NCBI RefSeq assembly: GCF_004924335.1
Contig: NZ_CP024633.1
Span: 1,302,001-1,366,000 of the forward strand
Reading direction: 5' to 3'
DNA length: 64,000 nt
Source of the DNA: Mycobacteroides salmoniphilum
Lineage (GTDB): Bacteria > Actinomycetota > Actinomycetes > Mycobacteriales > Mycobacteriaceae
The notes beneath the pieces were generated by a model. That model was given only the letters and a program-made list of their open reading frames with translations, searched no databases and was not told the origin of the DNA. The position numbers and the translations under genes are program-made. Position 1 is the first letter of the stretch. Each line of letters begins with the position of its first letter. Positions 51,254-56,794 of this stretch are shown piece after piece.

Positions 51254-52705
51254 ATGAATGACCTGACGATCGGCGAGCTGTTCGCGCACAACGACGACGT
51301 GCAGAAATCCCGCGCGGTCAGGCTGCTGGCCGCCAAGAATCTGGCGCCGTACATCACGCTCATGGAGCGTCACCTGGACCGCAGCGCGAAGGTTTCCGAG
51401 CCCCAGCTGGTGGCCAAGCTGGACCGGGACGTGGGCGCGGTCGGGCTGGGTGAGCAGTCAGGACTTGCCCTCATCAAGAGCTGGGCCAGTGACGGCTGGT
51501 TGCACCGCGCGTCGGATGGCGCTGGTCCCGACGCCGAGAACGTCTGCTCACTGACCGAGGATGCCCGCAGCGCGCTGGCCTTCGTACGCCGCCTGCGCCG
51601 CGCCGACAGCGTGGCCACCGGCGGATCCATCGCGGGTATCGCCGCGGGTCTCAAGCGGGTCGCGACCCAACTGGACGGCGACCCATCCCGCCTGCGTGCC
51701 GATATCGAAGCCCAGATCGCTGAGCTGCAGACCCTGTTGCACGCCATCGATGACGGATATCGCCCCGAACCGGACATCGTCGATCTTGAGGACGAGACCC
51801 GGGCCATCGCCTACCAGATGGAACAGGTGATCACCGACATCGTGCGTTACGGCAGCATGCAGAACGAGATCACCGCCGGACTCATCGATGCCGCGGAGGA
51901 CTCCGACACCGGGTTCCGGGACCGCGCACGACGGATGTTCGCCGACTATGACGCACTCTTCGACTCCCGGGAACGGGCCTCCTACGCCGCCTTCACGCGC
52001 ACCATCCAAGACCCCGATCAGCGCGCCGCCCTGCGCGGTGATATCGCTTGTGTGGCTGAGGGATTGCCCGAGCTCGATCCGGGGCTGCGTGACGTCATGA
52101 AGAACTTCTTCAAACTGGTGTCGCAACAGGTCGCAGAGGTCTCCCGCATCGAACAGCGCTGCGCACAGCGCATCCGGCGATTCTTTGCCGCCGGCACCAC
52201 GGAGCAGGCGCGCGGCCGCGCGCGACAGCTCAACGACGCACTGGCCGCCGGGCACGCCCTGCTCAAGGTGTCCACCGCGGACTCGCTGATTGACGCCGAG
52301 CTACCGATCGGCCGCTCGGCCGCGGCCGCCATTGGCGCTCTCTCGTTCACCATCAAGGACACCGCCCCGCCGGTGCTGGCGCAGGATGCGCCATCGGGGC
52401 TACTCGATTTGAGCGGATTCTCGGCGCTGGCCACTCAGGTGGATATGGCCTCATTAGCCGAAACCGTGAACAACGCCGTGGCCAAGGGGCCGGTGTCGTT
52501 GCCCGACATGATCTCTCACGTCGAAGCGCCGTACCTGGGTGATGTCATCGTGTTGTGGTCGCTTGCCCTCAAGCAGGACAGCACTGCCGACCGTGAATCG
52601 GTAAGAGTGAAGTTCCGGTCCCTCGACGGGCAGGACCGGGTGATGGAGGTGCCGCAGTTGATGTTCCGTGAACCAGTGCTGGCGAGTGTCGAGGAAGAAA
52701 TATGA
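51254..52705 (+). CDS. jetA: JetA/MksF kleisin-like subunit (DUF3375)
   Basis: This 483-residue mostly helical protein looks like the DUF3375 family, the MukF/MksF-type kleisin of the Wadjet (JetABCD, MksBEFG, EptABCD) condensin. It begins with a winged-helix-like part ([37 protein letters not shown]). A long helical middle follows (about 130-330). A C-terminal module ends [21 protein letters not shown]. The ATG has GATGGAGGTG before it. The stop overlaps the jetB start (52702-52705). The call rests on remembered family features plus the very characteristic order with the next two genes. Confidence 0.85.
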
Positions 52706-53436
52706 GCGCCGTGACCACAGGTTCCCCCTTGGGAAACATCAACTTCGATGATCTCCCCGGTGTGGAGCCCGATGCTTCGGCGCCAAGAATCGTCAAGGGG
52801 CCGCGGTTCGACGGCGATACCAGCGAGCTGCCGGACAAGGCGTGCTGGGCGCTGCAGAACCTGGTGGCTCGGCGTTATCTGAGCAAGGATGGCCAGCCCG
52901 AGCTGTGGGCATCGATGATCGAGCACCGCAAGGTGTTGGCCTCGCGCCTGTCCGAATTGGACCTACGGCTGCGGGTTTTCGACGATCTTGAGGTCGCGTA
53001 CGCCGAGCCGGCTCCGTTGGAGAATCCCAGCGCGTACGGTGCTCGGGTGTTGCGCCGGGAACCCCTGGGTACCTACGCGTCGATCGTGGCGCTGCACCTG
53101 GCCAAGATCGCACGGACCGCACACGACGAGCATGTATTGGTGAGCCGCGACGATATCCACGAGCTCTTCGCCAACGTCAGCCACGATATCGACCGCGATG
53201 AAGCGATGCTGCGCGATCGTGTCGACGAGGCCATCAAACGCCTGTCCAAGGCCGAGATCCTGCAACGCACCCGCGATGACGAGCACAGCTACACCATCAG
53301 CCCCGTCATCAACGCGCTGATGTCCGCACAGATGATCGAGGCGTTGCAACGCCAGTACGAGCAGCTTCAGCGCGGCGGTACCGCCCCGGAAGACTCCACC
53401 GACGAAGAAGATGGCGATACCGATGACGATGAATGA
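52702..53436 (+). CDS. jetB: JetB/MksE kleisin-interacting subunit (DUF4194)
   Basis: This 244-residue protein fits the DUF4194/MksE family: [20 protein letters not shown], then [15 protein letters not shown] and a winged-helix tail (about 140-205, [20 protein letters not shown]). Residues 225-244 are a highly acidic tail. It overlaps jetA by four bases, and jetC starts inside its last codons. In condensins of this type MksE bridges the kleisin and the SMC-like ATPase and may touch DNA. Confidence 0.85.
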
Positions 53437-56400
53437 CGACCTGAATGGCAGGCCGAGTGGCGCAGCCACCCAGCAGTTCTGGCTGTCTCGACTGCAGGTC
53501 ATCAACTGGGGTGTCTTCGACGGGTACCACAGCATTGAGTTCAGCCGCCGCGGCACGCTGATCACCGGCTCCTCCGGCAGTGGGAAATCTTCTCTGCTGG
53601 ACGCGATCTCGCTGGCATTTCTGTCGTCAAACCGCCGTAACTTCAACGCATCCAGTGATACCACCGCCGCGGGCTCCAATATGGGCAAGCGCACCGTCGA
53701 CAAGTACGTGCGCGGTCTGTGGGGTGAGCTGAAGAACCCGGGGGAGCGGCCCAAGCAGATGTTCCTGCGCGGTAAGGGCGGGGCGTGGTCGGCGATCGCG
53801 GTCACGTATGCGGGTACCGATGGCCGGGTAATCACCGGTCTGGTACTCAAATGGCTTGCTCCGGGCTCAGATTCGGACTCCTCGAGTCGCTACTACCTGA
53901 TTGACGCCGACGCCGATATCCGAGACCTGTGCAATGCCTGGGCGAGTAGGGGATATTCCGCCGCAGTCTTCGAAGGCGCGGGCTGGCGTGGCCACAAGAG
54001 TGAACGCTGGTACCTGGAACAGCTATACGCCGCCGTTGGTATTCAGGGCTCGTCGGCCGCGCAGCAGCTGCTGGGCAAGGCCAAGTCGCTCAAGAGCGTT
54101 GGTGGCCTGGAACAGTTCGTGCGCGAATACATGCTCGACGAGCCGGAGTCCATGGCCGCGATCTCCGAGGCGCTGGGTCAGATCACCCCGTTGGTCGACG
54201 CGCGTGCCGCGCTCGCGGTCGCACAGCGCCAGCGGCAGACCCTGGGCGACATCGAACAGATCCAGCAGACGTACGCCAGCGATGCCGCACAGCTGGCCAC
54301 CGTCGACGTCGTGGACCACCACACCGTGCGCGACTATGTAGACCAGCAGCGGCTTGCGCTGGCGGGACCCGAGATCGATCTGCTGGACACTGAGATCACC
54401 CGGCTCGGCGGTGAATGCGACGAAATCCAGTCGCGCCAGGACATTCTCACCGGTGAACGGGACAAGCTGCTCGGCCGGATCGCCGCCGCCGACAGCAACC
54501 TGGCACCGCTCAAGAGCGAGCTGGCTCATGCCCGTGCCCGTGCCGAGGAGGTATCGCGCCGGCGCACCGCCTACGACAGCGCGCTAGGTGACCTTGGGCA
54601 CGACGAGGACGTCGAATCGGCCGAGGAATTTGAAGCCATGCGGGTGGAGAGCCTGCGTGCGGTTACTCGGATCAACGCGGAGCTCGAAGCCGGACATGAC
54701 GCCTACGTGATGGCCGCCGGTGCACTGTCGACGGCGCGCGATCAACTGCGGGCAGCGTCCACCGAGCTCAAGCGCGTCGAGCATCTGGGAACCCCGGTGC
54801 CTCCCGACGAGGACCGCATGCGTGGCGAAATCGCAGCAGCACTGGGCCTTACCGCCAAGGAACTGCCCTATGTCTGTGAACTGATGGATCTGCGTCCGGG
54901 CCAGGAGCGGTGGCGCAAATCCGTCGAGAAGGTGCTGCGATCCACCGGCTTGTGCCTGCTGGTACCCGACCAGCACCACCGGCAGGTACTGCGATACGTC
55001 AATGAGCACCCGATGCGCGGCTACCTACAAATGGAACGAGTGATCCCGTCGGGCTCGCCTCGACGCGCCGAACCCGGCACGCTCGCCGACTGCCTGCGCC
55101 TCACCAACCCGAATCACGAATGCGCCGGTGCCGCCATGAATCTGGTCGCCGGCGTGGGCGATTACGTGTTGGTAGATACCCCCGACGAGTTCAGTAAGCA
55201 CCGCCGTGCCGTCACTGATCAGGGTCTGCGCAAGGACGGCGACCGGCGCGCGGTCAAGGATGACCGGCGCGAACTGCGTGCGTCGCAGTACATCTATCAG
55301 GGCAATGCCGGTGACAAGCGCGCGGCGCTCTCCGATGACGTGGTCGAGGCTCAGCAGGCCGTCGGTGACGCCGAGAAGTTCATCGGCGAAATGGATACCA
55401 AGCGCGAGGAACTGCGCTCCGAAGTGGTGCGGTGGTCCAAACTGCACAGCCAGTACGAGTATTGGAGCCAGATCGATACGGATTCGGCGGAAGCCGCCGT
55501 GGCACGGCTGCAAGACCAATACGAGACGATGCTGGAGGCCAACCCCGACCTCACCAGTCTGCAACAACAGGCCGATTCGTATCTCGACGAGATCAAGAAG
55601 CTCTCGGAGCGTATTGGTGCGTTGAGAAGGCAAGAATCTGAACATGATTCGCGTCGAACCCGGCTCCTGGATCTGATGGACAACCTGAATCCGCGCGAGG
55701 TGGGTGGGCACACCCGATCCGGTATCGAAACGTATGTTCCGCAGCTCTCGTCAAGCCTGGACGTGCTGGAGCCGGACTCCTACCGGCTGGAGCTGTGGCG
55801 TCAGATCGAGAAGGACCAGTCGGTGCTGCGCGAGAGCGTCACCCGCTCGCGAAACGAGCTCAACCGAATCCTCAACGCTTACGACCGGGACTTCCCGGAC
55901 TCGATTCCCAATGACAGTGAGAACTTCGACGAGAAGATCCACGACTATGTCGCCTTGTGCCGCCGGATCGACGAGCGTGACCTGCCCGCCGCCTACGAGC
56001 GGATGCTGCGGCTGATTACCGAGCAGGCACCCACCGCGGTGCTGCGGCTGCACCAGCTCGCGGAGGAGGAGGCGCACCGCATCACCGACCAGATCGACCG
56101 GGTAAACAGCGGTTTGGGTTCGGTGGAGTTCAACCGTGGGACGCGCTTGACCCTGCGTGCCGAGCCCAAGGCACTTGAGGCGGTGGGAGAGCTCAACGAG
56201 CGGGCCCGGCGCATCTCCGGACGCGCGGTCGCAGTTTCGATGGGAGACGAGAAGGCCATCCACGACCAGTACCAAGACATTCTGCAGTTGCGGAATCTGC
56301 TGGCCGCCGAGACTCCTGAGGCCCGACAGTGGACGCGCGACGCGTTGGATGTACGCAACCGCTTCGTGTTGTACTGCGAGGAGCGCGATGCCACGAGCGG

Positions 56401-56794
56401 CGAAGCGATCCGCACCTACAGTAATGCGGGCGCGAATTCCGGTGGGGAACAAGAGAAGCTGATGGCGTTCTGCCTCGCGGGTGCATTGAGCTTCAACCTG
56501 GCCAACCCCGAGACGGGGGATAACCGGCCGGTGTTCGCCCAGCTGATGCTCGACGAGGCGTTCTCGAAGTCCGACCCGCAGTTCGCGCAGCAGGCGCTGT
56601 CGGCATTCCGTAAGTTCGGGTTCCAGCTGGTGATCGTTGCCACCGTGCAGAACACCACGACCATTCAGCCCTATATCGACAGCGTGGTCATGGTGTCCAA
56701 GCCCGACGGTCCGGGTGTGCGGCCTGTGGCCTCGACACGCACCGTGCCCATCGGGGAGCTCGGCGACGTGCGCAAGGCAGTGGCCGCGCGCTAG
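53411..56794 (+). CDS. jetC: JetC/MksB SMC-like ATPase
   Basis: This 1127-residue protein is an SMC/MukB-type ATPase. Walker A is GSSGSGKS (53-60), followed by two long coiled-coil arms (about 290-470 and 610-910). A hinge-like middle (about 470-580) contains [19 protein letters not shown]. The ABC signature is NSGGEQEKL (from about 1009) and Walker B is QLMLDE (1044-1049). In-frame ATGs at 53411, 53423 and 53429 are all possible. The gene ends facing a crotonase with a four-base overlap, so no jetD nuclease follows. JetC forms the loop-extruding motor with JetA and JetB. Confidence 0.9.

Follow-up and report, generated by a model that had tools for sequence, protein, structure and literature searches.

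Systems closest to the operon described here share a structural maintenance of chromosomes (SMC) motor and differ in whether a nuclease accompanies it. In Wadjet type I (JetABCD; E. coli GF4-3, P. aeruginosa PA14) the JetABC dimer is described as extruding the plasmid, which JetD then cuts (PMC12647877). In C. glutamicum the nuclease reportedly connects to the complex via the kleisin MksF (PMC7083940), and the operons for MksBEFG of this species and EptABCD of M. smegmatis carry MksG/JetD as a fourth gene (PMC10123090, PMC7083940). P. aeruginosa MksBEF is a three-subunit, MukBEF-like condensin gene set (kleisin, kite, SMC) without a nuclease, and a JetD-type loss has already been proposed for it in print. 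Here we examined a jetA-jetB-jetC operon in a stretch of 64,000 nucleotides from Mycobacteroides salmoniphilum (contig NZ_CP024633.1, positions 1,302,001 to 1,366,000; "the window"). It resembles Wadjet type I in the families of its three proteins and in its overlapping gene order, and MksBEFG and EptABCD in that an actinobacterium has the three motor genes together with an ordinary SMC protein (here at 3,056,254-3,059,790 of the genome). Unlike Wadjet type I, neither the operon nor the genome holds a recognised JetD (DUF3322 plus JetD_C), and plasmid cutting would not be expected. It is like MksBEF in gene set but belongs to a separate lineage; for MksBEF a chromosomal role has been shown. 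In our reading the operon, whose three genes are intact, probably encodes a Wadjet type I-like SMC complex that lost an ancestral JetD and now serves as a nuclease-free second condensin.

Composition of the operon

The three genes are intact open reading frames (ORFs) on the plus strand, with overlaps of 4 bp (jetA/jetB) and 26 bp (jetB/jetC), which confirms the order and the short overlaps given in a preliminary description of the window. The features of the operon are as follows.

51254..52705, plus strand: jetA, mksF-like kleisin (DUF3375), 483 aa; Pfam PF11855 304.7 bits, PADLOC JetA1 797 bits, AlphaFold2 (AF2) fold
52702..53436, plus strand: jetB, mksE-like kite subunit (DUF4194), 244 aa; Pfam PF13835 118.4 bits, PADLOC JetB1 351 bits, AF2 fold
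53411..56794, plus strand: jetC, mksB-like SMC ATPase, 1127 aa; PADLOC JetC1 1969 bits, PDB JetC 8dk2 E 2.9e-55
53567..53590, plus strand: JetC Walker A, GSSGSGKS, residues 53-60; motif scan
56438..56449, plus strand: JetC ABC signature, SGGE, residues 1010-1013; motif scan
56543..56560, plus strand: JetC Walker B, LMLDEA, residues 1045-1050; motif scan and Pfam SbcC_Walker_B

The family assignment made at the outset (DUF3375, DUF4194, SMC-like ATPase) is upheld by strong Pfam and PADLOC matches. The Pfam matches, including those of JetC to AAA_29 (78.6 bits) and SbcC_Walker_B (66.5 bits), were above cut-off, and Wadjet type I profiles were the best PADLOC profiles for all three proteins. The best PDB sequence match of the window JetC was the solved JetC. 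JetA gave no significant sequence match in the PDB (E 0.45). For its AF2 model, with a mean predicted local distance difference test score (pLDDT) of 73 and a predicted template modelling score (pTM) of 0.38, all five PDB matches at E≤0.001 were Wadjet JetABC or JetABCD chains, three of them chains named JetA; the best E value was 3e-10, yet template modelling (TM) scores were merely 0.26-0.37 by query length. The JetB model (mean pLDDT 68) matched Wadjet JetABC chains best and MukE-MukF entries next, and its sequence scored 23.7 bits on Pfam MksE, under the cut-off of 27. Among NCBIfam models JetA and JetB had no match, and JetC matched SMC/Rad50-like models alone, far under their cut-offs. 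The window's JetA is the single DUF3375 match in its genome. A scan for promoters and terminators returned no promoter-like sites and one terminator-like site, against 2.7 in shuffles.

Search for JetD at the locus, in the genome and across the genus

No jetD gene follows jetC. At its 3' end jetC overlaps a convergent crotonase gene by four bases (56791-56794), leaving no room for a further gene directly after jetC; the preliminary description was correct on the missing jetD and on the crotonase. The crotonase occupies the place where JetD-bearing relatives have jetD. The flanking genes, which lie outside the system, are these.

56791..57576, minus strand: convergent crotonase / enoyl-CoA hydratase; Pfam ECH_1 164 bits
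49087..51117, plus strand: AMP-binding gene upstream, start codon uncertain, first described as a fatty acyl-AMP ligase (FAAL) gene; Pfam AMP-binding 171.4 bits

The genome is a single contig of 4,776,697 bases. The genome-wide profile search proposed with the first description was carried out, and neither PF09983 (JetD_C) nor PF11795 (DUF3322) matched, both being positive on the C. glutamicum control; PF11796 also gave no match, but every control was silent too. The JetD of a relative, locus L060 of genome G246, likewise found nothing in the window's genome when used as a query, although four JetD-bearing controls were positive, one of them the source genome of the query (G246). The jetD gene is thus absent from the operon and, as a recognisable gene, from the genome.

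We extended these searches to 11 genomes of the chelonae-abscessus group, which were selected by a JetA identity of at least 94%, so that group genomes without the operon would go uncounted. Ten of the 11 had no JetD_C match, and the L060 query found no match in nine of the ten other group genomes. The weak match in the tenth, G471 (E 4.8e-13), was part of a second, distant and complete-looking JetABCD operon (L100:5416-12135) in a genome that also has the JetD-less operon.

Across the genus, the window JetA as query matched 204 of 396 sampled Mycobacterium genomes, 201 of them at E 1e-60 or better; this set of 201 includes four low matches (G453, G533, G630, G260; E 7.5e-61 to 2.0e-94) and leaves out the three weaker ones. 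These and the other genomes searched are samples from larger groups. The operon had first been presented as a possible distinct variant in a pathogenic mycobacterium; it is not private to one pathogen, its JetABC lineage being present in 201/396 genomes, and "pathogenic" was not established either. JetD adjoined the JetA operon in only 8 of the 201. In the remaining 193, a JetD_C match was found somewhere in 25 and nowhere in 168, compared with matches in 34 of the 195 genomes without this JetA (Fisher p 0.26). Since JetD_C is not enriched, JetD elsewhere in a genome appears unlinked to the JetABC lineage. That the 25 JetDs do not adjoin the operon was read from coordinates or separate contigs, except in G438, G570, G623, G701, G722 and G748, where it rests on JetD scores of at least 182 bits, which mark the canonical type, intact JetDs of the lineage scoring 105-125 bits. 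A JetC homologue was present in 17 of 20 stretches around JetD matches, the exceptions being L110, L111 and L118. In four of the 25 genomes, G099 (L065), G670 (L110), G500 (L111) and G525 (L118), the match was a JetD fragment or weak match and a JetC homologue was not found nearby. The JetD-like fragments in these genomes with a JetD-less operon include L065:7179-7838, L110:8340-8864 and L111:9149-9520, with no JetC homologue in the stretch.

These counts bear on the explanation, raised in the preliminary description, that this is a split Wadjet whose JetD comes from elsewhere in the genome and acts in trans, so that plasmids are still cut. The 25 genomes with JetD somewhere, the four among them without a nearby JetC homologue and the second JetABCD of G471 are what such an arrangement could draw on. 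We nevertheless consider it very improbable. In the window's genome it would need a JetD unrecognisable to two profiles and to a JetD of the lineage, ten of 11 group genomes offer no candidate, JetD elsewhere is not enriched, and a JetC homologue accompanies JetD in most of the fetched stretches.

Trees of the motor proteins and the history of jetD

Outside the group, the closest relatives of the operon are L008/L066, L009/L064, L060/L061, L062 and L063 (to judge by length, L008 and L066 share one contig, as do L009 and L064; L060 and L061 come from near-identical genomes). All have jetD directly 3' of jetC, and their JetC identity to the window is 59-66%. The sisters L060, L062, L063 and L066 are 61-66% identical in JetA and 59-66% in JetC and share the jetA-jetB-jetC order, but differ in having jetD after jetC and other neighbouring genes. 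The more distant L108 has jetD in the same position. No jetD was found in 23 fetched loci of a large JetD-less clade (JetC identity 54-58%) or in five that belong to a more remote type (32-35%). Two further JetD-bearing operons of the lineage, L107:7446-14643 and L117:99-7143, have jetA, jetB and jetC each split into two frames.

The trees comprised 56, 30 and 27 rows, near-duplicates and some canonical rows being excluded. The JetC tree joined the group to the five JetD-bearing relatives with support of 100, and the same joint clade was recovered with JetA (support 100) and JetB (75). Forcing the group together with the large JetD-less clade was rejected for JetC (114 log-likelihood units worse; approximately unbiased [AU] test p 1.9e-8), and also by JetA (AU p 1.2e-5) and JetB (AU p 0.0021); the JetC clade test was chosen after viewing the first JetC tree, and the JetA and JetB tests reused its groups. 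The large JetD-less clade itself had support of 83 and 89 in two JetC trees, whereas in the trees of JetA and JetB no single branch set it apart. One clade (100/100) united seven JetDs from the lineage, as would fit a single ancestral JetD, and the JetC tree requires JetD state to change no fewer than three times. Because more distant canonical types carry JetD too, repeated loss is the simplest history. Most likely, to judge from these trees, jetD was lost in the chelonae-abscessus group independently of the larger JetD-less clade, and before the sampled genomes of the group diverged; independent gains by the relatives are formally possible.

Within the group the operon keeps its place. It lay between the same AMP-binding gene and crotonase in 14 of 14 loci compared, which amount to 11 distinct loci after merging three duplicate pairs and which do not include G518, G539 and G605; named records with this locus belong to M. 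chelonae and M. franklinii, and others are isolates without a species name. Across all JetD-less loci no 3' neighbour of jetC was common. Clusters c8, c14 and c15 recurred, but in a small number of loci that come chiefly from one related subclade, the neighbours compared being longest-ORF picks and not annotated genes. Ten ORFs 3' of jetC were scanned: two were PIF1-like, three had no match and five belonged to five different families. The PIF1-like helicase ORFs (L043:4213-6540 and L078:10557-12914) lie ∼56 and ∼124 bp 3' of a JetD-less jetC, and an Exo_endo_phos (endonuclease/exonuclease/phosphatase) ORF (L048:5810-6577) lies ∼27 bp 3' of another, all on the same strand as jetC.

Such same-strand ORFs could suggest that an unrelated nuclease or other effector, recruited by JetABC, has taken JetD's place. 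We regard this as unlikely, since the 3' ORFs are not conserved and none is common to all JetD-less loci, and the group operon adjoins just the AMP-binding gene and the convergent crotonase.

Selection on JetABC and use of the motor without JetD

JetABC is under strong purifying selection. In pairwise comparisons of the window with seven group loci, the ratio of nonsynonymous to synonymous substitution rates (dN/dS) was 0.018-0.034 for jetC, 0.023-0.045 for jetB and 0.036-0.066 for jetA. For the neighbours it was 0.086-0.156 (upstream AMP-binding gene), 0.045-0.099 (crotonase), 0.039-0.067 (gene 58219-60453) and, in six of the loci, 0.051-0.105 (gene 46582-47529). The last two we take, by eye, to be a molybdopterin oxidoreductase and a quinone oxidoreductase, respectively. 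In every comparison jetC was under all four neighbours. Nor does JetABC show more changes at otherwise invariant sites than JetD-bearing relatives do (counts below). These values also bear on the view that the operon is what remains of a defence system in decay. Its effector gene is gone, and JetD-bearing systems can break down, as the split frames of L107 and L117 demonstrate; decay is scarcely credible here, however, given three intact genes with ATPase motifs, a constant site in the group loci compared and the dN/dS of jetC. The spread of the operon, usually without an adjoining cutter, suggests repurposing of the motor and not its decay.

The history that we favour starts from an ancestor with JetABCD, in which the JetD nuclease was presumably encoded as the fourth gene. 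After jetD was lost, JetABC (the JetC ATPase, JetA kleisin and JetB kite) would have been retained, and without JetD it would load onto DNA and extrude loops at the expense of ATP. Its substrate would be the chromosome, plasmids or both, and it would work alongside the ordinary SMC. Both the extrusion by JetABC and its effect in the cell are inferred. The nuclease-free MksBEF-like extruder, one of the options put forward in the preliminary description, is accordingly the one retained here, on the same inferential footing.

A special case of this would be that JetABC counters small circular DNA by extrusion together with compaction or silencing, without cutting. A review credits the Wadjet motor with sensing DNA size and shape and describes Smc5/6 as acting in this way on viral circles (PMC10586767). 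The motor part, to which this sensing is credited, is conserved without relaxation, and JetC homologues (E 1e-5) are rare on plasmids (17/72,556 records) and phages (1/50,697 records), none reaching 60% identity, although rarity on plasmids alone says little. The literature searched gave no data that relate the operon to plasmid maintenance in the species concerned. We consider non-cutting silencing rather doubtful, and it is the main alternative use of the motor; on our analysis a nuclease-free, MksBEF-like second condensin is favoured.

Several observations weigh against that reading. The dN/dS of jetA overlaps that of gene 58219-60453. No residues diagnostic of JetD loss were evident: at otherwise invariant sites the window had changes at 10/161 (JetA), 6/69 (JetB) and 14/363 (JetC), within the range of four JetD-bearing relatives (2-18, 2-10 and 12-23), and the columns invariant in five JetD-bearing relatives and altered in most of six group sequences (JetA 6/161, JetB 6/69, JetC 14/362) formed no evident hot spot. 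Gene neighbourhoods of JetD-less loci vary between subclades, a pattern that suits an accessory element no less than a housekeeping one. The case for an ancestral JetD that was lost, as opposed to gains by the relatives, depends on parsimony and on rooting. Finally, a chromosomal role cannot be assumed because C. glutamicum MksBEFG, which includes the nuclease, reportedly acts on plasmids but has no role at the chromosome (PMC7083940).

A broader proposal, which we advance tentatively and hold to fall somewhat short of even odds, is that repeated JetD loss converted a defence that cuts plasmids into a second condensin, stable and free of a nuclease, in about half of mycobacteria, one that may fold the chromosome or silence small circles by extrusion alone. 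Close relatives with and without JetD, probably the result of several independent losses, form a natural before-and-after series. It bears on the activity left to an SMC motor that senses DNA size after the loss of its nuclease, and on the question whether defence systems gave rise to MksBEF and similar condensins. In annotation, a label of "Wadjet anti-plasmid defence" that rests only on JetA, JetB and JetC would be misleading for the majority of sampled mycobacterial copies of the lineage. A literature search of titles and abstract openings, with most subscription papers outside its coverage, returned no paper on a mycobacterial JetD-less Wadjet lineage; provisionally, the jetD-less operon of the group is new, yet JetD-type loss as such has its precedent in the proposal for Pseudomonas MksBEF.

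In a sample of the wider family, DUF3375 matched in 180 genomes, weak matches included, and 108 of these had no JetD_C match, among them 16/16, 9/9 and 8/8 of those with genus codes g30, g11 and g19. Seven loci of genus code g9 (L080, L081, L082, L083, L097, L098 and L099) hold canonical-type DUF3375/JetC operons outside the lineage in genomes without a JetD_C match; a search of their ORFs with two lineage JetDs, which are able to find canonical JetDs, found none, making this an apparent further JetD-less set. Two plasmids carry related genes. On the 22 kb plasmid 2 of Tsukamurella tyrosinosolvens (NZ_LR134444.1; L120:13-4682), a short DUF3375 gene at the record start is accompanied by DUF4194 and an SMC annotated as two pieces, with no JetD annotated in the stretch. 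On a 220 kb M. fortuitum plasmid (CP089609.1; L121:3770-10062), DUF3375 (annotated as two genes), DUF4194 and an AAA ATPase gene are followed by a hypothetical gene, with none named JetD. Lastly, a published comparison, PMC10551460, in which Wadjet and condensin are unmentioned, lists PF11855, PF13835 and PF13555 in a table of domains enriched in one mycobacterial growth class, evidently the rapid growers, as the table for slow growers comes next.

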